A stretch of DNA of 64,000 bases from Acidobacteriota bacterium (GCA_016201275.1 JACQDB010000084.1:1-64000), one strand, 5' to 3'. Positions 2,193-50,166 are shown, counted from the first letter of the stretch. Translations and numbers: made by a program. Notes: generated by a model from the letters alone, not told the origin.

Positions 2193-4094
2193 ATGATGAA
2201 ATTTTTTAAGGCGATTTTATTGATGGTTATTTTATCTGCCGCGACGTTGGCGGAAACGAATGGTGCGCTGCGCGGCAAAATCACCGACCCACGCGGCTAC
2301 ATTATGTATGGCCTGGGCGTGGTCGCTCGCCATCAGGCAACTACAGAAGAGAGCTATGCCACCTCGGATGATAAAGGCGAATTTGTTTTTGATAAACTTG
2401 CGCCGGGGCAATATATGCTCACGGCGCAGGCGCAAAACATCGAACGGATTTTCGGCAACGTCACCATTGAAGCGGACAAAACCACGGAGACTGAATTGCT
2501 GGCGCTGGAAACTCGCCCGACCGGCAATAACGCTGTAGATAAAATGATCGCTTCGATGGAGATCAACGGCGGCAGCTATCCGGCGGGCAACATCAGCTAT
2601 TTGAACCTCAACGACGCGCTGGATAATTATTTAATGATTATCTATTTCGGCATTCTCGGTCTGCTCTCCTGTTATGGCGTCTATCGCTATCGCATGATTT
2701 ATCTGTTCCTGCGTTATAAAAAATATCCGCCGCAACCGAAAGCCCGCTTTGCGCCCGACCGCCTGCCGCGCATCACCGTGCAGTTGCCATTGTACAATGA
2801 AATGTATGTTTCCGAGCGCTTGATCGAAGCGGTCACCAAAATAAATTACCCGAAAGGCTTGCTGGAAATTCAGGTGTTGGACGATTCGACCGACGACACC
2901 GTAACCATTGCCCGCGCCGCCGTGGAGAAATATTTCGCGCAAGGCTTTGACATCGTTTATCATCATCGCGCCAACCGCGCAGGCTACAAAGCGGGCGCTC
3001 TGGAAGAGGGCTTGAAAAAATCTTCCGGCGAATTGGTGTTGATCTTCGACGCCGATTTTGTGCCGCACCCGGATTGCGCTCGCAAGATGATAGACTTCTT
3101 TACCGAAGAGCGCGTCGGCATGGTGCAGATGCGTTGGAGTCACATCAACGCCGATTATTCGCTGCTCACCAAAGTTCAATCCATCATGCTCGATGCCCAT
3201 TTCGTCATTGAACAGACGGCGCGCAATCGTTGCGGCGGCTTCTTCAATTTCAACGGCACCGCCGGGATGTGGCGACGCGAAGCCATCGAATGGTCGGGCG
3301 GTTGGCAACACGATACCTTGGCCGAAGACACCGATCTTTCTTATCGCGCTCAGTTGATGGGCTGGCGATTCGTGTATTTGATGGACGAAGATGTGCCTGC
3401 GGAATTGCCTGTGGACATCAACGCTTTCAAATCGCAGCAGAAGCGCTGGGCGAAAGGCGTCGTGCAGGTTGGCATGAAATTGATGAAGCGGATGTGGCAA
3501 GACCCGCGCCTTTCAACCCAGGTCAAGCTTGAACAGTTCTTCCGTTTGACCGGCAATCTGGCCGCGCCTTTGGTAATTGTTCTGGCGCTGGTCAACTTGC
3601 CGATTTTAATCGTGCGCTACAATCAAGGCTTGTTTCATCTCTTCGTTCTGGACTTGCCGATTCTGACTTTTTCAACCGTCTCGGTCATCGCCTATTTTTT
3701 GACGCCGCAAATTTATCTGCATCCGCAAAGCTGGAAGCGTCTGTTGAAATACATTCCCTTTGCCATGAGCATGGGCATCGCCTTGACCTTCTCGAATGCC
3801 CGCGCTGTGCTGGAAGCGTTGGTGGGGCATAAGTCCGAATTCGTGCGAACACCGAAATATCGTATCGAAGAGAGCCAAGATACCAGTTGGGTGAAGAAGA
3901 GTTACGCGGCGCGGCGCTGGTCGCTGCCGTGGCTGGAAATACTCTTTGCGCTCTATTTTGTCTTCACGATTTATTATGCGATTAAGAGTCAGATATTCGG
4001 CACGATTCCCTTTTTGCTGATCTATCTTTTCGGCTATGCTTACGCCAGCGTGATGGCAATCGTGCCAAAATTGCGCCGCGCAAAAACCAAGTAA
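2193..4094 (+). CDS. Membrane family-2 glycosyltransferase with N-terminal CnaB-like domain
   Basis: 633 residues from the ATG at 2193, preceded by AGGGA; an in-frame ATG at 2166 would mask the signal peptide. Order of parts: signal peptide (1-20), a carboxypeptidase-regulatory/CnaB-like beta-sandwich (about 22-105, with GALRGKITDPRG and DDKGEFVFDKLAPGQY), one transmembrane segment (about 145-170), a GT-A catalytic domain, and several C-terminal membrane helices. Catalytic motifs are all present: DDSTDD, DADF, EDTDLSYRAQLMGW and QQKRW, the D,D,D,QxxRW set of processive cellulose-synthase-like enzymes. It probably polymerises or transfers a sugar at the inner membrane for an exopolysaccharide or glycolipid; the sugar is unknown. 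The fused N-terminal sandwich is less common. No synthase partner genes are adjacent. Confidence 0.85.
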   Translation: MMKFFKAILLMVILSAATLAETNGALRGKITDPRGYIMYGLGVVARHQATTEESYATSDDKGEFVFDKLAPGQYMLTAQAQNIERIFGNVTIEADKTTETELLALETRPTGNNAVDKMIASMEINGGSYPAGNISYLNLNDALDNYLMIIYFGILGLLSCYGVYRYRMIYLFLRYKKYPPQPKARFAPDRLPRITVQLPLYNEMYVSERLIEAVTKINYPKGLLEIQVLDDSTDDTVTIARAAVEKYFAQGFDIVYHHRANRAGYKAGALEEGLKKSSGELVLIFDADFVPHPDCARKMIDFFTEERVGMVQMRWSHINADYSLLTKVQSIMLDAHFVIEQTARNRCGGFFNFNGTAGMWRREAIEWSGGWQHDTLAEDTDLSYRAQLMGWRFVYLMDEDVPAELPVDINAFKSQQKRWAKGVVQVGMKLMKRMWQDPRLSTQVKLEQFFRLTGNLAAPLVIVLALVNLPILIVRYNQGLFHLFVLDLPILTFSTVSVIAYFLTPQIYLHPQSWKRLLKYIPFAMSMGIALTFSNARAVLEALVGHKSEFVRTPKYRIEESQDTSWVKKSYAARRWSLPWLEILFALYFVFTIYYAIKSQIFGTIPFLLIYLFGYAYASVMAIVPKLRRAKTK

Positions 4095-4100
4095 AAAGGC

Positions 4101-4192
4101 AAAAGGCAAAAGTAAAAAGTTAGAAAGATCAAAGGCCGGCAGATTTTATTTACCTGAAATATTTGCCTTTTGCCTTTTTACTTTTGCCTTTT
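4101..4192. repeat. 19-nt perfect inverted repeat between glycosyltransferase and peptidase genes
   Basis: Arms AAAAGGCAAAAGTAAAAAG (4101-4119) and its exact complement (4174-4192) enclose 54 nt. The arms are built from AAAAGGCAAAAG units; similar units recur near 38161-38177. It may act as a weak terminator after the upstream gene, but the stem is A/T-rich and has no classical loop. It looks like a low-complexity dispersed repeat. Confidence 0.75.
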
Positions 4193-4209
4193 GGTTAAGG
4201 CTTCCCCCG

Positions 4210-6393
4210 ATGAAAAAACTGATACTGCTTATCGTTGTGGCAATTTTTTTTGCCCAACTTCAACCGCTCACGGCTTCGGCCTATCAACAAGCGACCGACA
4301 ATTCCTACAGCAAAACCGCGCTGCTTGGCGATAAAGAAATTCTGGCACTCGGCGCTGAAATCAACGGGTTGATTGCCAAAGACACCGTGACCGAGCTTGC
4401 GCGTTTTCATCGCGTGCAAGCCTCCACGGGGTTTTTATCCGCCGCCGAATACATCGCCGCGAAAGCCAAAGAATACGGCCTCGAACAAGTCAAAATCGAA
4501 CACCTGGTTGCCGATGGCGAAAAGATGTATCACACCTTGAAATCCACGCCGGGTTGGGACGCCGACAGCGCCGTGCTTTGGGAAGTCGCGCCGCGCAAAA
4601 CTAAAATTGCCGACTATGAAGAGATGCGCGTGGCGCTTGCCGATTATTCGCAAAGCGCCGAAGTGACCGCCGCGCTTGTTGATGTGGGCAACGGCACAGC
4701 GGCGAGCGATTACGAAGGCAAAGAGGTGAAGGGCAAAATTGTGCTGGCCGGAGGCAATGTGGCGGCGGCGCATAAACTGGCTTGCGAAGAACGCGGCGCT
4801 GTAGGCGTGTTGAGTTATCAACAAAATCAAGTCACCGGTTGGTCTGGCGATTATGTGGATAATGTGCGCTGGGGGCATTTGTCGCCGTACAACGCCGATA
4901 ATAAATTCGCCTTCATGATTTCTCTGCGGCGCGCCAGAGAGTTCAAAGAGCGGCTGGGGCGTGGCGAAGCGATCACCTTGCAGGCGAAAGTTAAAGCCGA
5001 AATTAAACCCGGCAATTACGATGTCGTGACGGCAGTGATTCGCGGCACCGATGCGGCGGATGAAGAGATCGTTTTTTCCTGTCATCTGTGTCATCAAAAA
5101 CCCGGTGCGAACGACAACGCTTCGGGGGCGGCAGCGATTTTAGAAGTCGCTCGCGCTTTGAATACGTTAATCAAACGCGGCGACATTGAGCGTCCGCGCC
5201 GCAGCATACGCTTCATCTGGCCGCCGGAAATCAACGGCACGTTGGCCTATTTTGCCGAGCATCCCGAAATCGTCAAACGCATGAAAGCAGCGGTGCATTG
5301 CGATATGGTGGGCGGCAATTTCGCCATCACCAAAGCGGTACTGCACGTTACCCACACGCCTGCATCTTTGCCGAGCGCGGTGAATATCGTCGGCGACATC
5401 TTTGCTGAATACGCCATCGCCGGAAGCTTGAAAGCGGCTACAGGAGCCGATTTCACGGATGCGCTGATTTCTGCCGAAGGTAGCAAAGACCATTTGGTTG
5501 CCGACATCACGCCTTTCGAGATGGGTTCGGATCACGATGTTTATCAAGAGGGTTCGTTTCGTATTCCGACGATTTATTTGCGCGATTGGCCTGATGTGTT
5601 CATTCATACCAACAACGACAAGCCCGAAAATATTGACGCGACGAAGATGAAACGCTCGACCTTTATCGCCGCCGCATCCGGTTATTTTCTGGCCAAGGCA
5701 GGAGCGCGGGAGGCTTCCAAACTTGCCGATGAAGCCTTTGTACGGGCGATGGCGCAATTGCCGAAAGACCGCGCCCGCGCCGCCAGCATAGAAGCCAGCG
5801 GCGGCGAAACGGCGGTCGAAGAATCACGCAACATCATTGCGCGTTCGCTGGAACGCGATGCGGAAATTCTCGCCTCGGCGATGAGCTATGCGCCCAACGA
5901 TAAGAACTTGGAAAACAAGATTGACGGCATGATTGAACAATTGAGCGGCGCGTGGTTGTTGTTGACAGGGCAAATCAGCGAACAGAAAAAAGGCAATCGC
6001 GTTCTGTTCACCATCGAAGCGAAAGAGCCGCCGAAAGAGGCTAAAGACAAAGCGAAACCGCGCAATCCGAAAGACGCTTCACGGTTGCGTGTCGGCGGTT
6101 CCGATGCCAGTCGCATTCCGACGCGCAAGATCAAAGGGCCTATGAATGTTTACTATTACGATTATGTAGCCGCACACGCCAGCGCCGAGGATTTGCGCGT
6201 CGTCGAGCGCCTAGCGGCCAAGCCGAAAGGCGACATTCTGTTGTACGAGATTCTCAATCTGGTGGACGGCAAGCGTAGCATACAGGCGATACGCGATTAT
6301 CTGACAGCGGCCTATGGCACGATTTCCGTCGAAGAAGTTGGCGATTATCTGCGCCTGCTGGATAAAATCGGCGCAGTGAAAATTGAAGGCTGA
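4210..6393 (+). CDS. Secreted M28-family zinc aminopeptidase with PA domain and C-terminal winged-helix-like domain
   Basis: 727 residues with signal peptide (1-25, ending ASA). A protease-associated (PA) insert spans about 125-260. The metallopeptidase core shows the M28 ligands in order: HLCHQKPGANDNASG (about 291-305), PPE (about 338), HCDMVGG (about 362) and GSDHDVYQEGSF (about 438). This fits two-zinc exopeptidases; the DUF4910-type aminopeptidases are the nearest relatives I recognise. The last 60 residues (from about 668: LYEILNLVDGKRSIQAIRDYL) look like a small helical winged-helix/PqqD-like module, unusual at the end of a secreted peptidase. No strong Shine-Dalgarno is visible. Substrate unknown. 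Confidence 0.82.
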   Translation: MKKLILLIVVAIFFAQLQPLTASAYQQATDNSYSKTALLGDKEILALGAEINGLIAKDTVTELARFHRVQASTGFLSAAEYIAAKAKEYGLEQVKIEHLVADGEKMYHTLKSTPGWDADSAVLWEVAPRKTKIADYEEMRVALADYSQSAEVTAALVDVGNGTAASDYEGKEVKGKIVLAGGNVAAAHKLACEERGAVGVLSYQQNQVTGWSGDYVDNVRWGHLSPYNADNKFAFMISLRRAREFKERLGRGEAITLQAKVKAEIKPGNYDVVTAVIRGTDAADEEIVFSCHLCHQKPGANDNASGAAAILEVARALNTLIKRGDIERPRRSIRFIWPPEINGTLAYFAEHPEIVKRMKAAVHCDMVGGNFAITKAVLHVTHTPASLPSAVNIVGDIFAEYAIAGSLKAATGADFTDALISAEGSKDHLVADITPFEMGSDHDVYQEGSFRIPTIYLRDWPDVFIHTNNDKPENIDATKMKRSTFIAAASGYFLAKAGAREASKLADEAFVRAMAQLPKDRARAASIEASGGETAVEESRNIIARSLERDAEILASAMSYAPNDKNLENKIDGMIEQLSGAWLLLTGQISEQKKGNRVLFTIEAKEPPKEAKDKAKPRNPKDASRLRVGGSDASRIPTRKIKGPMNVYYYDYVAAHASAEDLRVVERLAAKPKGDILLYEILNLVDGKRSIQAIRDYLTAAYGTISVEEVGDYLRLLDKIGAVKIEG

Positions 6394-6558
6394 ACCATTA
6401 CGACAGCCTGATAAACACAATGCCAAGCGGTTTATTCCGGTGAAAGAGATCGGCTCACCTGACCAGCCCCGTTGTGGTTTTGCATTGTGATGCCCTGCAA
6501 GATAGCATCTTGCGCCACTGCGTTTGGAATTTTTTATCAGCATCAGGAGGACTTGATT

Positions 6559-7383
6559 ATGTTGCGTACCTGCTTTTTTGCTCTTTGCTTGCTTGTCTGT
6601 GTAGCCAGTTCTAGCGCCGCGCAAACCGCTGATACGATTTCGACCCGCGACATGAGCGACATCAACTGGATGGAGTTCAAAGAGGCGGTGCCAGCGAAAA
6701 TCAACACGGTGATTTTGCCTACCGGAACGCTGGAGCCACACGGCGTCATCAACAACGGCGCGGACATCACCGCACCCGTAGCCATTGCGCGCAAGATTGC
6801 CAGAGACGTAAACGCTATGGTTGCGCCGGTCATTCCTTACGGCATCACCGGCAGCATGGACGCTTACCCCGGCGCGTTTTCCATTTCCGAAGCCGCTTAT
6901 CGAATGTATGTCAAAGAGGTATTGAACGGCTTGGCGAAAAACGGTTTTCGCAACATCGTCATCATGAACGGCCACGGCGGCCCACAGACTGCGGTGTTGA
7001 CACAACTGGCTACCGAAGTCGGGCAGGAGAAACATATACGCACGCTGGTCATCAACTGGTGGAGCTATTGTTCAGATGTGACGCTTGCGGTGTTTGGCGA
7101 AGATGGCGGTCACGCGGGGCTGAACGAAAACGCTTTTATTCAAGCCATAGACCCCAAGCTGGTGCATCAAGAACGCTATACGGATGCGCTGGCGACGCCC
7201 AACCCCGCGCCGGGAACGTATTCGGCTTATCCTGCGCCGTCTTCGATAGGGCTGTACAAAGAGGGGCAGGGCTATGTGAAATTCGATCAGGCGAAAGCCG
7301 ATGACTACTTCGCCAAGGTGAATCAGAAACTGGCGAAATTAATTTTAGAGATTCGCCGCAAATGGGATATGGCGGGGCTGTAG
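6559..7383 (+). CDS. Secreted creatininase-family amidohydrolase
   Basis: 274 residues from ATG 6559, chosen because AGGAGG lies 8 nt upstream and it gives a signal peptide (MLRTCFFALCLLVCVASSSA). Creatininase-fold metal ligands are visible: PTGTLEPHGVINNGAD, MNGHGG and GGHAGLNENAF. The family includes creatininase and the Fe/Zn hydrolases MftE and ArfB, which open amide or cyclic amide bonds. A secreted form is unusual for creatininase itself, so the exact substrate is not assigned. It lies 165 nt after the M28 peptidase in the same direction and may share its physiology (peptide or amide scavenging). Confidence 0.82.
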   Translation: MLRTCFFALCLLVCVASSSAAQTADTISTRDMSDINWMEFKEAVPAKINTVILPTGTLEPHGVINNGADITAPVAIARKIARDVNAMVAPVIPYGITGSMDAYPGAFSISEAAYRMYVKEVLNGLAKNGFRNIVIMNGHGGPQTAVLTQLATEVGQEKHIRTLVINWWSYCSDVTLAVFGEDGGHAGLNENAFIQAIDPKLVHQERYTDALATPNPAPGTYSAYPAPSSIGLYKEGQGYVKFDQAKADDYFAKVNQKLAKLILEIRRKWDMAGL

Positions 7384-7405
7384 TCCTTTCGTCAGGTCGT
7401 CCGGG

Positions 7406-7516
7406 GTCTGGTGTCCGACTGTGCAGGGCAAAATGACTCTGAAAAAATCTTCTCTGTCGGGCGTAATGCTGGACGCCATTTTAATTCTTGCGGACACCGA
7501 ACGCCGGACACCAGAC
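7406..7516. repeat. Inverted repeat GTCTGGTGTCCG / CGGACACCAGAC
   Basis: Perfect 12-nt arms (7406-7417 and 7505-7516) flank 87 nt that carry no gene. The core CCGGACACCAGAC belongs to a family of short dispersed repeats that fill gaps in this chromosome. Possible weak hairpin after the creatininase gene. Confidence 0.65.
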
Positions 7517-7599
7517 GCTTTTAGTTGACACCTGCGCGTCTGAGGTTTTAGTCTGCAAGACAATTTACTGAAGCCGTATAGAGGTCTGGAGGATAAACT

Positions 7600-7977
7600 A
7601 TGCAGTGTTTAAAATGTGGCTCGGAGAATCGTGATGAATCGAATTTCTGCCGCTATTGCTCGGCTCCGTTAAAGCCACCGCCAGCAGAGCCGAATTCCGG
7701 TTATATCCCGTCGGTGCCGCCCACTGGAGCAGGCTTTGCCGGTAGCAATTTTCCGCCGCCCAATTATCAACAAGCGCCGCAACCTCCTATGCGCCAAGTC
7801 GTCGGGCAATTGTGCTGTCCGCGTTGCGGCTCGGTCAATATTATCAAAGGCGGCATTCCTTTGTGGGCAACGCTAGTGGCCATTATCGGCTTGTTCGTGG
7901 TCTGTGTGTTGTCGCTTTTTTTTCTCTTGGTGAAAGAGCCGCACCGCTGTTTGAACTGCGGCCTGGAGTTCAAGTGA
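7600..7977 (+). CDS. Small zinc-ribbon membrane protein (two zinc ribbons, one TM segment)
   Basis: 125 residues; GGAGG 8 nt before the ATG. The N-terminus is a zinc ribbon (MQCLKCGSENRDESNFCRYC), then a Pro/Gly/Asn-rich linker (about 25-65), a second CPRCG motif paired with CLNCG near the C-terminus, and a hydrophobic segment (about 88-115) between the two halves of the second ribbon. That split resembles LITAF-like domains, where a membrane hairpin lies between the CxxC pairs. Probably a cytoplasmic-membrane protein of unknown function. Convergent with htrA and separated from it by a bidirectional terminator. Confidence 0.7.
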   Translation: MQCLKCGSENRDESNFCRYCSAPLKPPPAEPNSGYIPSVPPTGAGFAGSNFPPPNYQQAPQPPMRQVVGQLCCPRCGSVNIIKGGIPLWATLVAIIGLFVVCVLSLFFLLVKEPHRCLNCGLEFK

Positions 7978-8030
7978 ATACTGATTTTTGAGACGTTGAC
8001 AAAACGCTCTCTGAATTTTTGCCAAAGAAA

Positions 8031-8066
8031 AAAGCGGCCAGTAGAAATTTTTCTACTGGCCGCTTT
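8031..8066. terminator. Bidirectional rho-independent terminator
   Basis: 17-bp perfect stem, AAAGCGGCCAGTAGAAA / TTTCTACTGGCCGCTTT, with a 2-nt loop. A-rich on the left and T-rich on the right, so it can serve both convergent genes (zinc-ribbon gene and htrA). Confidence 0.92.
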
Positions 8067-8088
8067 GCTTGATCCGAAGGATATTTTA

Positions 8089-9552
8089 TTAATCGAGAGT
8101 GACGGTCACGTAAGCGAATTGACCGTTGCGCTCGATTTGCAAGACGAGTTCTTTGTCATTCTTCAAGACGTTGGTTTCGCGCAACCAGTCGGCACGATTG
8201 GTAATCAATTTGCCGTTGAGCCGATGAATCACATCGCCACGCCGAATGCCAGCTTCCGCGAAGGAGCTATCGGGTTGGACGTTTTGCACCAGCACACCGG
8301 TCGTCACTTTCAACTTCAGTTGTGCGGCAATCTGCGGCGTCAGGTTGTTTAACGAGATACCGAAGCGGCTGTCTTCGGGTTGTTCCTGCCCGTTTTCTTC
8401 GGGTTCTTGGGCATTGGCTTTCGGACGCTCGCCTAGCGTAACCATCGTGGTGCGTTCTACACCATCGCGCACGAATTTCACCGTGACCTGCTTGCCAACC
8501 GGCAAATCGGCAACCGTTTCCACCAGTTGTTTCGGCGTTTTAATCGCCTTGCCGTCAACTTCGGTGATGATGTCGCCGCTTTCCAATCCGGCTTTTGCGG
8601 CAGGCGGATTGCCTCTGGATACATCGCTGACCAACGCTCCTTCCGTGCCGGTGTACTTCAAGCTACGGGCAATCGCCGGAGTCACTTCAACCGGATATAA
8701 GCCCAGATAGGCGCGTGTGACTCTGCCGTTTTTAACCAGTTGCCCATAAACTTTCGACGCCAGATTGGCGGGGATGGCAAAGCCTACGCCCTCGCTAGCC
8801 CCGGAACGCGAGATAATCATGGAGTTGATGCCGATGACTTCGCCGTTCATATTGACCAATGGGCCGCCGGAATTGCCGGGATTAATCGAAGCATCGGTTT
8901 GAATGAAGTTGGTGAATTGACCCGCGCCGGGAATGTCTCGACCGAGCGCCGAAACGATACCGGCGGTCATGGTTTGTTGCAGCCCGAAAGGACTGCCCAA
9001 GGCAATCACCCACTCGCCCTGTTCCAGTTTGTCCGAATCGCCCAGCTTGGCATAAGGCAAATCCTGCGCGTCAATCTTGATGACGGCTAAATCGGTTTCC
9101 GGGTCGGTGCCAACTAACTTGGCTTTGAATTCACGACCGTCAGCCAACTTCACCTGCAATTTGGTAGCCTTACCGGCGACGTGGTCATTGGTCAAGATAT
9201 AACCATCGGGGCTGATGATGACGCCCGAACCCGTGCCTTTCTGCTTGCGCGGTACGGCATCTTCCAAGCCCGGAAACAACGGGAGCGGGATTTGACCACC
9301 GCGCTGCAACGCTATTCCCTTGGTCTCTTCGGTTGAGTCTATGTTGACGACTGCCGGTTTAACTTGTTTGGCGATGTTGACAAAAGTTCTGGATAAATCG
9401 GCGGGCGTGGGCAAAGACGACGGTTGTTGTTGAGCGGACACGGCGCGCTCGGCGCTATACCCGATTCCGATTGCGACAAATAAGGCCAGAGCCATCAACA
9501 GAACTCTGGCGCGATTCAGCTTTTTCTTTACCATATCTAGATTCTCTTCCAT
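8089..9552 (-). CDS. htrA: Do/DegP-like periplasmic serine protease-chaperone
   Basis: 487 residues from ATG 9552, which has AGGAG 7 nt upstream; the GTG two codons earlier (9558) sits too close to that site. An N-terminal signal anchor (VLLMALALFVAIGIGYSAERA) is followed by a chymotrypsin-fold domain with the full triad: His in TNDHVAG (about 120), Asp in ETDLAVIKI (about 154) and Ser in NPGNSGGPL (about 227). Two PDZ domains follow (about 285-375 and 395-480). It degrades or refolds misfolded envelope proteins, as DegP/DegQ do. A terminator follows. No sigma-E regulator is adjacent; the ECF pair at 32.7 kb is distant. Confidence 0.93.
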   Translation of the reverse strand: MEENLDMVKKKLNRARVLLMALALFVAIGIGYSAERAVSAQQQPSSLPTPADLSRTFVNIAKQVKPAVVNIDSTEETKGIALQRGGQIPLPLFPGLEDAVPRKQKGTGSGVIISPDGYILTNDHVAGKATKLQVKLADGREFKAKLVGTDPETDLAVIKIDAQDLPYAKLGDSDKLEQGEWVIALGSPFGLQQTMTAGIVSALGRDIPGAGQFTNFIQTDASINPGNSGGPLVNMNGEVIGINSMIISRSGASEGVGFAIPANLASKVYGQLVKNGRVTRAYLGLYPVEVTPAIARSLKYTGTEGALVSDVSRGNPPAAKAGLESGDIITEVDGKAIKTPKQLVETVADLPVGKQVTVKFVRDGVERTTMVTLGERPKANAQEPEENGQEQPEDSRFGISLNNLTPQIAAQLKLKVTTGVLVQNVQPDSSFAEAGIRRGDVIHRLNGKLITNRADWLRETNVLKNDKELVLQIERNGQFAYVTVTLD

Positions 9553-43274: not shown

Positions 43275-44429
43275 ATGAGTAAGAAAAAAATTCACGCGGC
43301 GCTAATCGCTATGACGATGTGCGCGTTGCTGACGGTTGGGTGGGGGCATGGTTTTTCTGCGCTGGCGGCGACGCAGAAAAAATCCACCAAGCCTGCTCAC
43401 AAAACGCCGACGAAAACCACCACGGCAAAAGCCGCGCCGATGGCTTCCCATTATGACAAAGGCTATCAAGGCGGCTACGGCGACGGTTATGGCCAAGGCG
43501 ATATGGATTGGCGACAAGGCGTGCCGCACGATTATAAGCGTTCGGACGCCTATCAACGCCGTGAGCGCCTCTATGATGCGACCCTAGGCAATCTGGAAGA
43601 GTATCGTCAAGGCTATGAACTGGGCTTCGAGTTGGGCTACCTGGATGGCTATTACGGACGCACCCGTAATCTACAGGTTCCCGCCAACGGCGTGGTGCTG
43701 GCCAAGGCGGCGGCGTTGGCCGACGCGCAAAGAGCCAGAGAACGCGAGGCGCAAAATCGCGACAACCGCGACCCGCGTGACAATCGCGACAATCGCGATT
43801 CGCAGGTCGGCAATACTCGCGACAACCGTGACAACCGCGATACTCAAGACCGGGGCAATCGGGATTCGCGCCGCGACCCGCCTACGACCGGCGGCACTTC
43901 CATCAATATTCCCAACGATACGCAACTCCGCATCAGCTTGACTTCGCAAATTGATACCAAGACGGCGCGTGTCGGCGACCGCTTCACCGCCAAAGTGTTG
44001 ATGCCTGCGGCCTATGAAAATGCGACAGTTGAAGGCCACATCGCATCGCTCAACAAATCGGGGCGCATCAGCGGCAAGACCGAAATGGGCTTGACCTTTG
44101 ATACCATCACCCTCGATGACGGCAGAAAAGGACGACTGGAAGCGCAACTAGAAAGAGTCATCGAATCGGAATCGGTGAAAAAGGTTGACGACGAAGGCAA
44201 TATTGAAACCGGCAGCCGCACCAAAGATTCGCAGGTGCGTGGTGGTGTCGGTGCAGTTGCCGGTGCAGTGATTGGCGGCATCGCCGGAGGTGCTAAAGGG
44301 GCGCTGCTGGGCATGATACTGGGCGGCGCGGCAGGCGTTGGCACCGTAGCCATTGAAGGCAACAAGGATTTGATTTTGGAACCCGGCACCGAAATGCTGA
44401 TTCGCGCGGCTCGTTCCGGCTCTCGTTAA
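43275..44429 (+). CDS. Secreted protein with Arg-Asp-Asn repeat and glycine-zipper C-terminus
   Basis: 384 residues; AGAGG before the ATG. Signal peptide 1-32; a Lys/Thr-rich stretch; a Gly/Tyr/Asp-rich segment (YDKGYQGGYGDGYGQGDMDW and an EYRQGYELGFELGY repeat) at about 55-135; then a low-complexity RDNRDNRD tract (about 160-200). A beta-rich domain (about 212-310, IPNDTQLRISLTSQIDTKTA) contains a TrbI/VirB10-like or copper-fist-like barrel. The C-terminus (about 325-365, GGVGAVAGAVIGGIAGGAK) is a glycine zipper of the kind that inserts in membranes. An envelope-attached protein of unknown function. Confidence 0.7.
   Translation: MSKKKIHAALIAMTMCALLTVGWGHGFSALAATQKKSTKPAHKTPTKTTTAKAAPMASHYDKGYQGGYGDGYGQGDMDWRQGVPHDYKRSDAYQRRERLYDATLGNLEEYRQGYELGFELGYLDGYYGRTRNLQVPANGVVLAKAAALADAQRAREREAQNRDNRDPRDNRDNRDSQVGNTRDNRDNRDTQDRGNRDSRRDPPTTGGTSINIPNDTQLRISLTSQIDTKTARVGDRFTAKVLMPAAYENATVEGHIASLNKSGRISGKTEMGLTFDTITLDDGRKGRLEAQLERVIESESVKKVDDEGNIETGSRTKDSQVRGGVGAVAGAVIGGIAGGAKGALLGMILGGAAGVGTVAIEGNKDLILEPGTEMLIRAARSGSR
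43761..43875 (+). repeat. Imperfect tandem repeat of GACAATCGC units
   Basis: About ten imperfect 6- to 9-nt units GA(C/T)AA(C/T)CGC encode the Arg-Asp-Asn tract. All in frame, so size changes in multiples of the unit would vary the linker length without breaking the gene. Confidence 0.75.
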
Positions 44430-44811
44430 AAAAAGTGGCACTCAGGCAAACTTTGGCGCTTTACTAGCTATCGGAAAAATTGGATAAGGCATACTAGAAA
44501 ATGTAGCCGCTCTCTTCCAGTTGCCCATATATAGGGTTCGGCTCAGGGGGCCGACAACTATTAAAGCCCTCAAACTTTTTGCCGCATCGTTGACGCAATG
44601 AAATCGGCGGCGCTTAGTTTGGTAGAAAAAAGTGATGCGGCTAAACTTCAGGTAGCAAAATGCGCCAGCCGGATTTTTGGCTGGCGCATCATTCCTGTTT
44701 TATAAAGCTGCCTTCAAAGTCTATCAGCCTCTTACCACTGCACCTACCTCAAAGCTGGTTCTCTGAGACAGTTTATTAAACAGTCGGGGGATAAGCGGGG
44801 TGTCGGTCTGG
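44430..44811 (+). other. 382-nt gap with a terminator-like hairpin
   Basis: No supported gene. The hairpin ATGCGCCAGCC (44660-44670) / GGCTGGCGCAT (44679-44689) with loop GGATTTTT is a probable terminator between the convergent genes on either side. The GGGTTCGGCTCAGGGGGCCGA stretch near 44541 is GC-rich but has no recognisable riboswitch. Confidence 0.6.
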
Positions 44812-45213
44812 TTATTCTTGGTGGCGTAAAAATTCTCTTACCACACGGAGCGCCACCATCTGTAGAAAAACTTTAAGCCCAGCGATGTTGGTGACTTCAA
44901 GTTGTCGCAAGGCCAGACAGCGCTGCTCGGTCAATTTAACATAGACCCTTCGCATCAAGGTCGCCATCATTGCCTCCTGATTTGGTAAATTGAGTTCTCC
45001 TTGTGTCTCTTGTAGCTGCAATGATTGTTCTATGCTGACGCGAATGGTCGGCGAAAAGCGGCGCACAAACTCGCTCCAGGCAAGCGTGTCCACGGGACGC
45101 AACGAACAGCGGCGGATTAACTCGGCAGGTGTCAGTAATAACTCTTCTACCACCTCGGTTGCGCCGCCGTGGATTAATCTAAATGTACCAGGGTTCTCAA
45201 AATCTATTTCCAC
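44812..45213 (-). CDS. Short sigma-70 region-2-like protein
   Basis: 133 residues from GTG 45213 (GAGGA 7 nt upstream). The central part, LIRRCSLRPVDTLAWSEFVRRF followed by STIRVSIEQSL-like helices, resembles the region 2 helices of sigma factors (x-L-x-R-C-x-x-x-D-x-x-A-W-x-E-F-V-R-R-F). The rest (MRRVYVKLTEQRCLALRQLEV...FLRHQE) is helical. There is no region 4 DNA-binding domain, so it is half a sigma factor, or a decoy or co-factor. 63 nt downstream of the excisionase-like gene, same strand, likely one operon. Confidence 0.55.
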   Translation of the reverse strand: MEIDFENPGTFRLIHGGATEVVEELLLTPAELIRRCSLRPVDTLAWSEFVRRFSPTIRVSIEQSLQLQETQGELNLPNQEAMMATLMRRVYVKLTEQRCLALRQLEVTNIAGLKVFLQMVALRVVREFLRHQE

Positions 45214-45276
45214 AAATCTTTCCTCACTTCTTGATAGTTCCGGTCGCTCAGGTTCAGGAATTGATCGGCGCGGCGT

Positions 45277-45582
45277 TCAGGCGCTTTGCAATTCCAGGGT
45301 TGTGTGTCGAGCGTTGGTTGCCTGCTCCCATTGAATCAGCGACTCCGGGCAAATCAGCAGAGAACCGCTGGCGGTCTCCAAGTAATGCACCTGTTCCTCT
45401 TCGACCAAACGACATAGCTCTCGCGTGCTGTAAGGAAACAACACCGTTGCTTCATCCAGCGTCAGCAATACGGCGGTTGTGCCGCAGGCTCTGCAATAAG
45501 GTTTTGGGAACTTGCCGCGATGACGTATGACCATGACCTCGTGCGTTTCGATAGTGATCTCGGTACGGGTTTCGGTGTTCAC
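45277..45582 (-). CDS. Excisionase/MerR-like small DNA-binding protein
   Basis: 101 residues from GTG 45582 (AGGAG 5 nt upstream); the longer frame to 45660 has no ribosome site. Near the start is a CRAC pair (PYCRACG), which may bind metal. Then comes LLTLDEATVLFPYSTRELCRLVEEEQVHYLE with GSLLICPESLIQW, the layout of excisionase-type winged helices in which the second helix and wing contact DNA. It likely regulates the divergent genes on either side of the 45583-45773 spacer. Confidence 0.6.
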   Translation of the reverse strand: MNTETRTEITIETHEVMVIRHRGKFPKPYCRACGTTAVLLTLDEATVLFPYSTRELCRLVEEEQVHYLETASGSLLICPESLIQWEQATNARHTTLELQSA

Positions 45583-45773
45583 TGCCGCTCCTAAAAAATA
45601 ATTTACTAAGGCCAGTGGCTGTGCTATTCTGCACACACTCCAGGTCCTATTCGCATACATGAGTGACTGGCCTTAGTTTCGCAACGACAGCGTGCGTCAA
45701 GTGAGGCGTAAATGTACTTAGCAAAAACTTTTTTCCTCCTGAATTATTTCTGAATACGTCGAAAAGGTTGATT

Positions 45774-48257
45774 ATGAAAGCATTATATAAGATCGGTGCG
45801 TTTTATCTTGACCCGGAAAAGAAACTTCTCATCAAAGAGAATCAACCGGTTGCCATTCAACCAAAGGTGTTTGACACCTTGCTGGCGCTGGTCGAAGGGC
45901 GCGGCACAGTCCTTACCAAAGATGATTTGATGGAGAAAATCTGGAGCAACATCGCTGTTGAAGAGAATAACCTGCAGCAGCATATTTCGGCACTGCGAAA
46001 AATTCTCGGTAAAACCGAGGACGGCAAACCCTACATTGAAACCCTGCCCAAGCGTGGCTACCGCTTTACCGCTACCGTCGAAGAGCTTGAAGATGATGGC
46101 GTGCTGGTGGTAGAACGCCGCGTCCGTTCCCTCATTACCATTGACTCTTCGACAAAAACTATTGCGGACGAAAAGGTTGTAACACCAGCGCTGAGTGAGC
46201 CGCTTACAACGGCGCAAAATCAACCGGCGTTGGCGGTCGTGCCGACCATTCGAAAAGCCGCAACCGCTTTGGTGCTGAAACGCGCTTTGCTTGCCAGTGC
46301 CACCATTGCCGTGGTGTTGGTCGCCGTAGCGGTGTGGCATTCCGGTTCAAAAATGGCAAACTCGCCAAAGCACAACCACAGTTTTTTACTCAAGCAGAAT
46401 CCGATCCTCGGCATAAAAAATGATGGCGAGACCTCCGGCGTGATAAACGGCAAATTGTCACCGGACGCGAGCCTGATTGCCTACTCGTTGGAAACCAAAA
46501 ATAAGTACGAAAATATTTGGATCAAATCCATAGACAACAACTACGCTTTACCCTTAACCAATGAATGGAGCAAGAACTGGAATCCGATTTGGTCGGCCAA
46601 CGGCAGTGAAATCGCCTTTCTGTCTGACCGTGGCGGCCAGCTGGGACTTTGGAAAGTTCATCACGTTGGCGGCCCTGCGACGCTGATCAAATCTTTAACT
46701 CCGCATGGTGCCAGAGACGCGCAAATCAAGCCACGGTTAATCTATTGGGCTGAAGATGGCAAGACCATTTATTATCAATGGGACTGCAATGTCTTCGCTC
46801 TTGATATGGCCTCGAAAGAAGCCAACCAACTCACCGGCTTTGACCCCGATCAATCCATAGCGCGTGACTTCTGCCTGTCGCCGGATCAAGCCTGGCTTGC
46901 TTATGTGGAGAGAAAAGACGGGCAATTCGATATATGGAAAATACCGACCAAAGGTGGCGCGCCGCTTCAAGTCACCCATGATGCCGCGATTGAAAGAAGC
47001 CCGGTCTGGAGCGCCGATGGCAACAGCCTGATTTATGAAGTTTCACAAGAAGGCGTCAATGAATTGCGGATGGTGGAAATGCAGAACGCTCAGGCGGTCT
47101 TCTCCCTTTCCAGCGTTGAGGCCGGAGACATTGCCGATATTTCCCGCGATGGAACGAAAATTCTGTATCGCAGCAGAAAAGATGAATCGGATTTGTGGAA
47201 GGTCAATGTCGCAACCGGTGAAGATGTGCAAATCACCTCGGACATCGGCGTGGAGTTCTGGCCGGATTTTTCACCCGACGGCCAGACCATCGTCTATCAG
47301 GCAAAGCGCGGATCAAACTTTCAAATTGATCCCTTCAATTGCACGATCTTGACGAAATCGCTGGCGCGTGACCGTCAACCGGCAGCCCTTGCCGCCTCTG
47401 CCTGTGAAGCGCAATGGTCGCCCGATGGCACTCATCTGGCTTTCCTGCGTCAAGAAAAGAGTCTCTTTAACCTCTCTATTGTCGAAGCCATCGGTGGTCA
47501 AGAGCGGCGCGTAACCGAAGGCGGTGTCAGTTCAGGAGGCTTTGCGCTGGTTCCCTACAATCTTTCCTATACGAAAGATTATTCGTGGTCGCCCGACAGT
47601 AGCAAAATCGCCTACATCGCTAAAAAAGAAGAGGTGCAAAATGTTTGGGTAACCGCGATTGATGGCTCCGGTGAAACTCAGTTATCGAACCATACCGATT
47701 CTTCCCTGTATCTTGCTTGTCCTTTATGGTCGCCGGACGGCAAACGCCTTGCCTACATTTCGGATGATTATAAGAACCCGCAAAACGACAGCCGCACCTT
47801 TACCGTGTGGCTTGCCAGTCTCGAACATCCCGAAAAACCGGAAGCAATTTTCCACACCGATTCTTACTTGAACCTGATTGGCTGGTCTGGCGACGACCAA
47901 CTTCTCATGGCCTTGCTCGACAAGGCAGAAAAAACCTCAACCAGCACCTATGACTTGGACCTCTATACGCTTACCGGAAAAACCAGTCAAAAAATCACCA
48001 CTCTCAAACAAACATACTTGTCCAACCTGCATCTGTCCCCAGACCAAAAGAGTCTGGCTTTTGTTGCCAGACTTAATGGGAAATCCAACAACCTTTACAC
48101 CTACGCTTTGAAAGGAGGTGAACCAAAGGCCATCACGAAAAACACCAACCCCACAATCTATTTCTCCTCTCTTGCCTGGTCACCTGACGGCAAATTTATT
48201 TGCTATGGCAAACAAGAAAGGACGAACTCTTTAACCCTCATCGAAGGATTTCAATAA
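45774..48257 (+). CDS. Membrane winged-helix regulator with TolB/PD40 propeller (ToxR/CadC-like)
   Basis: 827 residues from ATG 45774 (AAAAGG 6 nt upstream). Residues 1-105 are an OmpR/PhoB-type winged helix (GTVLTKDDLMEKIW, NNLQQHISALRKIL, ETLPKRGYRF). A linker leads to one TM helix (about 164-186). The rest is a periplasmic beta-propeller with at least ten PD40 repeats of the form WSPDGxxIAY (for example WSANGSEIAFLSD, WSPDGKRLAYISD, WSPDGKFICYG). It senses something outside through the propeller and binds DNA inside. Such fusions are multiplied in acidobacteria. A cysteine-rich peptide gene starts 11 nt after its stop. Confidence 0.85.
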   Translation: MKALYKIGAFYLDPEKKLLIKENQPVAIQPKVFDTLLALVEGRGTVLTKDDLMEKIWSNIAVEENNLQQHISALRKILGKTEDGKPYIETLPKRGYRFTATVEELEDDGVLVVERRVRSLITIDSSTKTIADEKVVTPALSEPLTTAQNQPALAVVPTIRKAATALVLKRALLASATIAVVLVAVAVWHSGSKMANSPKHNHSFLLKQNPILGIKNDGETSGVINGKLSPDASLIAYSLETKNKYENIWIKSIDNNYALPLTNEWSKNWNPIWSANGSEIAFLSDRGGQLGLWKVHHVGGPATLIKSLTPHGARDAQIKPRLIYWAEDGKTIYYQWDCNVFALDMASKEANQLTGFDPDQSIARDFCLSPDQAWLAYVERKDGQFDIWKIPTKGGAPLQVTHDAAIERSPVWSADGNSLIYEVSQEGVNELRMVEMQNAQAVFSLSSVEAGDIADISRDGTKILYRSRKDESDLWKVNVATGEDVQITSDIGVEFWPDFSPDGQTIVYQAKRGSNFQIDPFNCTILTKSLARDRQPAALAASACEAQWSPDGTHLAFLRQEKSLFNLSIVEAIGGQERRVTEGGVSSGGFALVPYNLSYTKDYSWSPDSSKIAYIAKKEEVQNVWVTAIDGSGETQLSNHTDSSLYLACPLWSPDGKRLAYISDDYKNPQNDSRTFTVWLASLEHPEKPEAIFHTDSYLNLIGWSGDDQLLMALLDKAEKTSTSTYDLDLYTLTGKTSQKITTLKQTYLSNLHLSPDQKSLAFVARLNGKSNNLYTYALKGGEPKAITKNTNPTIYFSSLAWSPDGKFICYGKQERTNSLTLIEGFQ

Positions 48258-48268
48258 GGAGAACAAAA

Positions 48269-48439
48269 ATGACGAGAGAAAAAAAATCTTCCCTCAACGA
48301 AGCCCCGGAATTACGAGAGGCCTTGCACCTTTCTGCCGAGGCGTCATCGGAACCGGAATGCCAATCTAACGAGGATTGCCCTCCGAATTGTCGTTGTGTG
48401 GGCGGCAGGTGCGTATCAAACGGTCAGCAATCGCACTAG
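48269..48439 (+). CDS. Cysteine-rich knottin-like peptide, candidate modified or secreted peptide
   Basis: 56 residues; AGGAG 7 nt before ATG 48269. The N-terminal part (1-25) is charged and Ala/Glu-rich, leader-like, with no hydrophobic signal. The C-terminal part carries five cysteines: Cys-x5-Cys-x3-Cys-x-Cys-x4-Cys in ECQSNEDCPPNCRCVGGRC. This spacing matches cysteines 2-6 of squash-type trypsin-inhibitor knottins (last loop one shorter), a resemblance I judge convergent. The first cysteine is missing, so the fold would be incomplete or dimeric. Probably co-transcribed with the membrane regulator. No maturase, protease or exporter gene is adjacent. Confidence 0.6.
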   Translation: MTREKKSSLNEAPELREALHLSAEASSEPECQSNEDCPPNCRCVGGRCVSNGQQSH

Positions 48440-48804
48440 CCAAATAAACCAACGAATCTTGGGTAATAAACAATCAAGGCTTGACCTTCAATTCTTCTCT
48501 CAGCCTTAACAAAATCACAACTTCAGCCTTTGCTGAACGCCTCTTTCAGGTCAACGCAAAGGCTATTTCTTGGTTTGCCTGATGACGTTAGCAAGCCGCT
48601 TGCCGGTTTGCCGTGCGCCGTTTCTCGGTTGCGGCATCAAGGCAAGGCCGTGCGTCGCTGGCAAAGTATTGTCGCCGGGTTTTGGATTGTGGGCTTTTCC
48701 AGTGCTACTATTCAGTTTCACCGGCAGGCGGAAAAGCCAGGTAAAGCGACCAAGATCAATTGATCGAGACCGCGCAATTCTGATTTGGAAGGGACTGACC
48801 ATTC
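48440..48804 (+). other. 365-nt gap with a hairpin after the peptide gene
   Basis: Hairpin AGCCTTTGC (48525-48533) / GCAAAGGCT (48556-48564), followed by ATTTCTT, a plausible terminator for the regulator-peptide operon. Nothing else coding. The right part is the leader of the cystathionine beta-synthase gene, with many GCC/GGC palindromes. Confidence 0.55.
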
Positions 48805-50166
48805 ATGCAATATGAAGAAAATATTTTAGGACTGATCGGCAACACCCCGCTCGTAAAACTTAACAAACTGACTAAAGGCATCAAGGCCACCGTGCTGGCC
48901 AAGATGGAATCGCTCAATCCGGGCGGCTCGGTCAAAGACCGCATCGGCCTTTCGATGATTAACGCCGCCGAACGCGACGGACGCCTACAACCCGGCGGCA
49001 CGGTTGTCGAAGCGACCAGCGGCAACACCGGCATAGGCTTGGCGTTGACCTGCGCGGTGCGCGGTTACAAAGCCGTCTTTGTGATGACCGACAAATGCTC
49101 AGTTGAAAAAGTGCGCTACTTGAAAGCCCTCGGCGCTGATGTCGTCGTCGTGCCGGTTGCCGCCAAACCCGATTCGCCGGATCATTACGTCAACACGGCG
49201 CGCCGCATAGCCAAAGAGACGCCCAACTCCATCTTCGTTTTTCAATATGGCAACCCGGCCAACCCGGAAGCGCATTATCTGACGACTGGCCCGGAACTCT
49301 GGGAACAAACCGCCGGTCAACTCACGCACTTCGTCGCGGGTTTGGGAACCGGCGGCACCATCAGCGGCACCGGACGCTATTTGAAAGAGCAGAATCCCAA
49401 TATTCGCATCATCGGCGCTGACCCTTACGGCTCGGTCTTTAAGACGTTCAAAGAGACCGGACAATTACTGCAAGCCACGCCTTACCTGGTCGAAGGCATC
49501 GGCCAGGAGATTATTCCAGAAAACGTCCACATGAAATATATAGACGACATCATCAATGTCACCGACCGCGACTCGTTTCAAATGGCCAGACGATTAGGCC
49601 GCGAAGAAGGGATTTTCTGCGGCGGTTCAACCGGCACTATAGCGGTTGCGGCGTTGCAGTTGGCGAGTAATTTATCCAAAGATGATGTAGTCGTATTTAT
49701 CGTCTGCGACACCGGCGAGCGCTATTTATCGAAGTTCCTTTCCGATGAGTGGATGAAAGAAAAGCGCTTGCTGGTTCCCGAAAAAATGACTCTGGGGTTG
49801 CTCAATCAGACGAAGCAGAACGAAGACACGCCGCATCTGGTGGCGGTCGCCCCGCATCATTTGGTCGGCGATGCCTTGCAGATGATGAACTCGTATGGAC
49901 TGTCGCAACTGCCGGTTTTGGAAGCAGGCAACTCGGTAGGCTCTTTGCGCGAAGGCCGTTTGATGTCCAAGCTTTTGAAGAATCGTGACCTGATGAAAGC
50001 GCCAGTTTCCGAAGTGATGGAGAAAGGCTTTCCGGTCATCAGCGAAGACGTGAGCATCGAGCAAGCGGCGAAATATTTGAAAGATTCACCGGCGGTGCTG
50101 GTCGAAGAATACGGGCGCATCGTCGGCATCGTCACGCGCTACGATGTGTTGGGCGCGCAGTTGTAG
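48805..50166 (+). CDS. Cystathionine beta-synthase with two CBS domains
   Basis: 453 residues. Fold-type II PLP domain: [15 protein letters not shown] Lys in [11 protein letters not shown] (about 36-46), TSGNTGIGL (about 71-79) and [12 protein letters not shown]. After about residue 330 come two CBS motifs ([17 protein letters not shown]..., [21 protein letters not shown]) that bind an adenosine nucleotide and regulate activity. It condenses serine and homocysteine to cystathionine. No haem-binding N-terminus, as in other bacterial members. Confidence 0.92.

Follow-up and report, generated by a model that had tools for sequence, protein, structure and literature searches.

What is a membrane-bound DNA-binding protein doing with a tiny cysteine-rich peptide encoded directly behind it? 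This question is raised by a locus at positions 44,812-48,439 of a 64,000-nt stretch of DNA (the window) from an Acidobacteriota bacterium (GCA_016201275.1, JACQDB010000084.1:1-64000), where a winged-helix/propeller regulator and a 56-residue peptide are encoded divergently from an excisionase-like and a sigma-like protein. An earlier note on this sequence had described the four genes, their strands, a 191-nt spacer and an 11-nt gap, all of which were found in place when the open reading frames (ORFs) of the window were checked, and had proposed one circuit of a secreted knottin-like peptide and a periplasmic propeller sensor. Its observation was partly confirmed and its interpretation partly supported. 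The locus is a composite of two modules, an excisionase-like/winged-helix pair and a propeller/tail-protein pair, and both are kept far more widely than the full layout, but separately, and each more often than by chance. Within one class of Acidobacteriota, the pairing of propeller and tail genes is almost constant, which points to a receptor-partner pair of a type not yet described.

A propeller clade and its cysteine-tailed partners

Searches for relatives with the 56-residue peptide alone returned noise only; the true partner family was found via synteny and then with a profile of longer relatives. In genome G002 the stop codon of the orthologous propeller gene is followed at 0 nt by the gene for a 127-residue protein, the tail of which matches the window peptide. 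The first partner profile, made from this protein and from those of the second loci of G000 and G015, identified relatives in 20 of 162 genomes of the class (one genome per species was searched, and the window genome alone represented its own genus). Most of them lie directly behind a gene for a PD40 propeller protein with a winged helix or a Ser/Thr kinase at its N-terminus. A further profile of the last 350 residues of the partner-linked propellers (A5) defined a propeller clade with 41 members in 22 of 58 genomes.

The association was then assessed in a blind test on newly found clade propellers with enough flank, in which a small ORF with the pattern C-x(4-7)-C-x(2-5)-C near its C-terminus was looked for within 600 nt, and 89 propellers from outside the clade were treated alike. 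Such an ORF was present downstream of 18 of the 22 clade propellers versus none of the 89 others (Fisher p 3e-17), so that the earlier note had guessed the unit well by pairing a propeller sensor with a cysteine peptide. Among the four negatives, two carry a shortened tail with two cysteines (L284 and L287), and a clade propeller found later (L289) also has a tail protein. As a background, the pattern occurred in 5 of 384 other genes, three of which were true members missed by the exclusion. Start codons of the tail genes mostly lie 0-21 nt past the propeller stop. Outside the class, neither the tail family (396 genomes of the phylum) nor the propeller clade (297 genomes) was detected, with few candidates scored per genome. 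For one clade propeller lacking a downstream tail gene, a 78-residue ORF with the cysteine tail CEESGWILCCDGNCVPPEVGC was noted divergently upstream (L283:7724-7960).

In a tree of 44 propeller regions, the clade members were set apart from the controls with full support. The partner class follows this tree, with one change being needed for the group with BON-type partners. Kinase-type proteins of G031, G015, G160 and G161 nest within the winged-helix group to which the window protein belongs (99% in the Shimodaira-Hasegawa-like approximate likelihood ratio test). Thus, one output domain has replaced another on a propeller that kept its tail partner, and this swap is the main reason for tying the partner to the propeller rather than to the output domain. 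It also makes a coupling between the two directly testable. Many TolB/PD40-like propeller regulators without known inputs are encoded in genomes of the class; for one group of them, the clade-specific, co-encoded partner with its constant cysteine tail is a tangible starting point for learning what may be sensed.

The tail, usually of the form CPxG...C.G.CV/I and with 2 to 6 cysteines, always lies near the C-terminus and is the constant part while the carriers change. Seventeen partners have a BON-type or similar N-terminal part (Pfam BON up to 1.5e-12), and 16 of these begin with a hydrophobic, export-type N-terminus, which would therefore bring them into the same compartment as predicted for the propeller. 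A second class has a helical core with the consensus YxxLRxVLDAFxxxALxYxLxG; it was modelled as two helices with a hairpin tail (predicted local distance difference test score, pLDDT, 69), and this model had no fold match in the PDB or among viral models. For the tail family no solved structure was found, and no Pfam or NCBIfam model scored above its cut-off for the window peptide or the helical/tail family. Behind the tail gene, a papain-like peptidase is encoded in L151, L262, L269 and L278 (Pfam) and in L264 and L268 (motif QGxCGSCWA), and a tyrosinase-domain protein in L063 and L069 (Pfam) and in L124 and L125 (similarity). No exporter was seen beside the tail genes. In one genus, the gene directly behind that of a helical-class tail protein encodes an AAA regulator of the sigma-54 type whose N-terminal part is GAF-like (L132:7088-8929, with equivalents in L126-L128). 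The G002 tail protein is followed by a second small ORF (L061:7851-8051), with a signal peptide, the tail CSEDSQCPTGQKCINGTC and weak matches to EB and Dickkopf_N (Dickkopf_N 2e-4).

Receptor, window peptide and their possible interplay

The window regulator was identified as a membrane winged-helix/propeller protein, as the earlier note had it, by matches to Trans_reg_C (1.9e-16) and PD40 (1.3e-39) and one predicted transmembrane (TM) helix. Its winged helix resembles those of CadC and ToxR in the PDB, and its propeller scores 497 bits against the hidden Markov model (HMM) of the clade. An AlphaFold2 model of the ectodomain (pLDDT 80.7, predicted TM-score 0.69) was compared with the PDB by Foldseek, and the top matches included the two-propeller proteins 2ymu and LRP6 E3E4, and also tricorn protease and TolB. 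The modelled ectodomain is probably made of two propellers, with an uncertain arrangement of the halves.

The five cysteines of the window peptide (C-x5-C-x3-C-x-C-x4-C) match column by column the four-cysteine tail C-x5-CPxxxxC-x4-C of the G002 protein at the orthologous position; the tail is retained and the helical core is almost wholly gone. We regard the peptide as a short, divergent member of the cysteine-tail family, mostly because of its position, together with a ribosome-binding site and the tail columns, and not on score alone.

For the pair as a whole, a unit of a transmembrane receptor and a co-encoded cysteine-tail partner, acting in the envelope in the manner of ToxRS, is given about an even chance (roughly 0.5). 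The receptor would join a cytoplasmic output domain (a winged helix in the window, a Ser/Thr kinase in most relatives) through one TM helix to a large periplasmic propeller. The next gene would encode the cognate partner, a short C-terminal cysteine tail borne by a BON-like exported domain, by a helical domain or, in the window, by almost nothing. This partner would most likely modulate the propeller in the envelope, as ToxS does for ToxR or VtrC for VtrA, and binding of a signal would lead to a change in the output domain. In the window, the winged helix may act on the divergent promoters through a 12-bp inverted repeat and thereby control its own operon as well as that of the excisionase-like and sigma-like genes. 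This reading draws on the blind test, on the partner class following the propeller tree through the output swap, on the short distances between propeller and tail genes, on the export-type N-termini of the BON class, on the inverted repeats in the window, L061 and L063, and on the likeness of the winged helix to CadC and ToxR.

Several results weigh against such a ToxRS-like unit. The main weakness is the compartment of the partner: neither the helical-class partners nor the window peptide, which the earlier note had taken to be secreted, have a signal peptide or a TM segment, also when the frames are extended upstream, and contact with a periplasmic propeller would therefore need an unknown export route. 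In addition, a comparison of the clade propellers revealed no conserved cysteine able to pair with the tail, and significant inverted repeats were confined to three loci (window, L061, L063) and absent from L069 and L125. With composition correction, moreover, the held-out tail HMM placed the window ORF at rank 4 of 1515 ORFs with an E-value of 0.72. Together with the missing helical core, this last result might indicate that the ORF is not a gene or is the decayed remnant of a 127-residue partner of the G002 type. We consider this quite unlikely, as the frame has a good ribosome-binding site, starts exactly where expected, agrees with G002 in its tail columns and ranks first of the 1515 when the correction is left out (E=0.0015). 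It is highly improbable that the peptide inhibits proteases as a squash-type knottin or acts as a bacteriocin-like toxin. The cysteine spacing is nearly squash-like, and the earlier description of it as lacking one cysteine was right on the count, five instead of six; its last loop of 4 residues is also one residue shorter than in the squash spacing. The Pfam Squash model PF00299 gives 14.1 bits (E=0.05), below its cut-off of 22, no signal peptide is present, and relatives at the same position share a different common cysteine pattern. Since its cysteine region aligns column by column with the G002 tail, the knottin is the wrong frame for the peptide.

Two other readings concern the function of the tail proteins. 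They could be regulated output only, envelope or stress effectors that are co-transcribed with the regulator and do not touch the propeller, a view that we hold to be somewhat unlikely. Regulators are often encoded beside their targets, and the helical class without export signal argues against contact; however, the partner stays with the propeller clade through the change from winged helix to kinase, and kinases need no promoter target next to them. Given a constant tail, changing carriers and peptidases close by, a released tail peptide might also be the ligand. In such an autocrine system, the tail would be released by a neighbouring papain-like peptidase or modified by a tyrosinase, and the freed disulfide peptide would bind the propeller. 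The constant C-terminal place of the tail and the papain-family or tyrosinase-like genes that follow it in several loci would fit, as would the match of the propeller model to LRP6, a binder of Dickkopf and of disulfide-constrained peptides, and the weak Dickkopf_N match of the small protein in the G002 locus. We nevertheless judge it unlikely: no dedicated exporter was observed beside helical-class genes, neither a papain-like peptidase nor a tyrosinase adjoins the window peptide (a cystathionine-beta-synthase-like gene comes next), no cleavage site was identified, and the likenesses to LRP6 and Dickkopf are weak and perhaps convergent. By analogy, one could go further and propose a peptide-hormone-like system, in which cysteine-tail peptides on interchangeable carriers are matured by papain-like or tyrosinase enzymes and serve as ligands of periplasmic double-propeller receptors with kinase or DNA-binding output, in the manner of Dickkopf and LRP6; this appears more doubtful still. 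If the tail were a ligand, this would be peptide signalling of a class not yet described in the bacterial envelope.

Comparison with known systems

The ToxRS-like reading takes its model from the co-component systems ToxR/ToxS and VtrA/VtrC, which combine a membrane winged-helix factor with a downstream co-regulator (PMC9214523). Common to both are the winged helix, one TM helix, a periplasmic sensor, fast-evolving partners and a same-strand co-regulator gene immediately behind, which is found here after 11 nt in the window, after 0 nt in L061 and within 600 nt in 18 of 22 clade loci. In the known systems, however, the sensor is a small alpha-beta domain and not a propeller, and the partner is lipocalin-like; the partners here carry a cysteine tail on a BON or helical domain and are not recognised as lipocalins. 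Their partners have an N-terminal TM helix or signal peptide, which holds here for 16 of 17 BON-class partners but not for the window peptide and the helical class, and they form obligate periplasmic heterodimers; here, contact of propeller and tail is inferred. Moreover, the output here can be a Ser/Thr kinase, and papain-like or tyrosinase genes are associated. Because its partner is not a recognised lipocalin and has no signal peptide, the window pair was not placed among the co-component systems.

CadC-like transmembrane regulators share the winged helix and the single TM helix with the window protein, which differs by its propeller sensor and its downstream tail partner; a survey of them does not mention propellers, PD40, TolB or WD40 (PMC10269533). 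Receptor Ser/Thr kinases with propeller sensors (PknD and PD40-tethered kinases, PMC2877116) have the same kinase, TM helix and extracellular propeller, and the part of that paper in which kinase-tethered domains are listed does not mention a tail partner. LRP5/6 also have double propeller ectodomains, bound by small cysteine-rich modules, yet they are eukaryotic, the matches reach TM-scores of about 0.3 at ~10% identity, and homology of the tails is not established. For precursors of ribosomally synthesised and post-translationally modified peptides, a dedicated maturase and an exporter would be expected alongside; some tail loci have papain or tyrosinase genes, no exporter was seen, and neither enzyme is encoded beside the window peptide. 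In the open PMC literature, no paper on this propeller/tail pairing was found, and searches for a propeller with winged helix and kinase in Acidobacteria, or for BON with papain and kinase, gave nothing relevant beyond one kinase classification paper.

The divergent genes and the layout of the window

The features of the locus are collected in Table 1. The complete four-gene layout was found in one other genus of the family, in locus L061 of G002. The co-occurrence in relatives that the earlier note had looked to thus holds for this genus, and beyond it the two modules occur separately; most tail-protein loci have no sigma and excisionase-like genes, and its placing of all four genes in one conserved unit is not supported.

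Table 1. Features of the locus in window coordinates, with the orthologues in G002 (coordinates of L061)
Feature	Position	Strand	Basis or remark
Sigma-region-2-only protein, 133 residues, GTG start, no region 4	44812-45213	-	Held-out HMM
Excisionase-like protein, about 101 residues, CxxC pair and helix-turn-helix-like segment	45277-45582	-	GTG start aligned with G002 orthologue; ORF open to 45660
Divergent intergenic region, 191 nt	45583-45773		Set by the G002-aligned GTG start of the excisionase-like gene
Left arm ACTAAGGCCAGT of perfect 12-bp inverted repeat, candidate operator	45605-45616		49 nt between arms
Right arm ACTGGCCTTAGT of the inverted repeat	45666-45677		
Membrane winged-helix/propeller regulator, 827 residues	45774-48257	+	Trans_reg_C, PD40; PDB matches CadC, ToxR, TolB
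OmpR/CadC-type winged-helix DNA-binding domain, residues 24-98	45843-46067	+	Pfam; CadC 5ju7 E=7.7e-12
Single predicted TM helix, residues 171-189	46284-46340	+	Hydropathy
Propeller ectodomain, 638 residues	46341-48254	+	AlphaFold2 model, Foldseek, clade HMM
Gap, 11 nt	48258-48268		Ribosome-binding site GGAG at 48258-48261
Cysteine-tail peptide, 56 residues	48269-48439	+	Position, GGAG, tail alignment with G002 partner
Cysteine tail CQSNEDCPPNCRCVGGRCV, residues 31-49 of the peptide	48359-48415	+	Alignment with G002 tail
G002 orthologues (L061)	Sigma-like 3945-4334; excisionase-like 4371-4682; propeller 4878-7295; tail protein 7296-7679		

The excisionase-like/winged-helix pair was analysed in loci picked for an excisionase-like homologue, blind to the neighbours. 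A winged-helix gene starts less than 1 kb away on the opposite strand in 27 of 30 copies, mostly at a distance of 143-268 nt; of the other three, one lies at a contig end and two have the winged-helix gene at 1.4 and 2.7 kb. Such pairs are frequent in the class, in most cases without a tail protein. By sequence, the excisionase assignment made in the earlier note is weak: the window protein is 54% identical to its G002 orthologue and has no Pfam match, and HTH_17, the profile for excisionase/MerR-like DNA binding, was hit weakly (E=0.037) in one homologue only. In this homologue (L069:5070-6128, G015:C11), encoded divergently to a winged-helix/propeller gene, the excisionase-like domain forms one protein with a sigma factor that has both region 2 and region 4. 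This fusion suggests that the two small window genes are functionally linked. A related sigma protein is encoded at the same place in L125 (2855-3727).

The window sigma-like protein, which the earlier note had called sigma-region-2-only, was recovered at 1.3e-26 by a profile that excluded it and its G002 orthologue and is a region-2-only relative of extracytoplasmic function (ECF) sigma factors; it has region 2 and differs from them by the absence of region 4, of which no remnant was found downstream. Homologous full ECF sigma factors (L098) match Sigma70_ECF at 1.6e-6, and the region-2-only homologue in L095 matches Sigma70_r2 at 1.3e-3. Stand-alone proteins of the latter kind were also seen elsewhere (L095:5828-6178, L096:6387-6815 and L097:5192-5620), in L095 and L097 near a full sigma factor gene.

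Inverted repeats related to that of the window spacer occupy the same position in L061 and in L063 (each at p 0.00-0.01 against 100 mononucleotide shuffles), and the winged helix might use the window repeat for autoregulation. As a general trait of excisionase-like/winged-helix pairs, such repeats were rejected, as the other spacers as a set did not clearly differ from shuffles. The 191-nt spacer contains no consensus sigma-70 promoters, and Rfam gave no match in window positions 44000-49000. In three genomes, a cystathionine-beta-synthase/cysteine-synthase-like gene is found near the cysteine-tail gene, at a distance of a few genes at most (window 48805-50166; L061:10049-11410; L274, reversed, 7770-9137), which may be due to chance or to a functional link.

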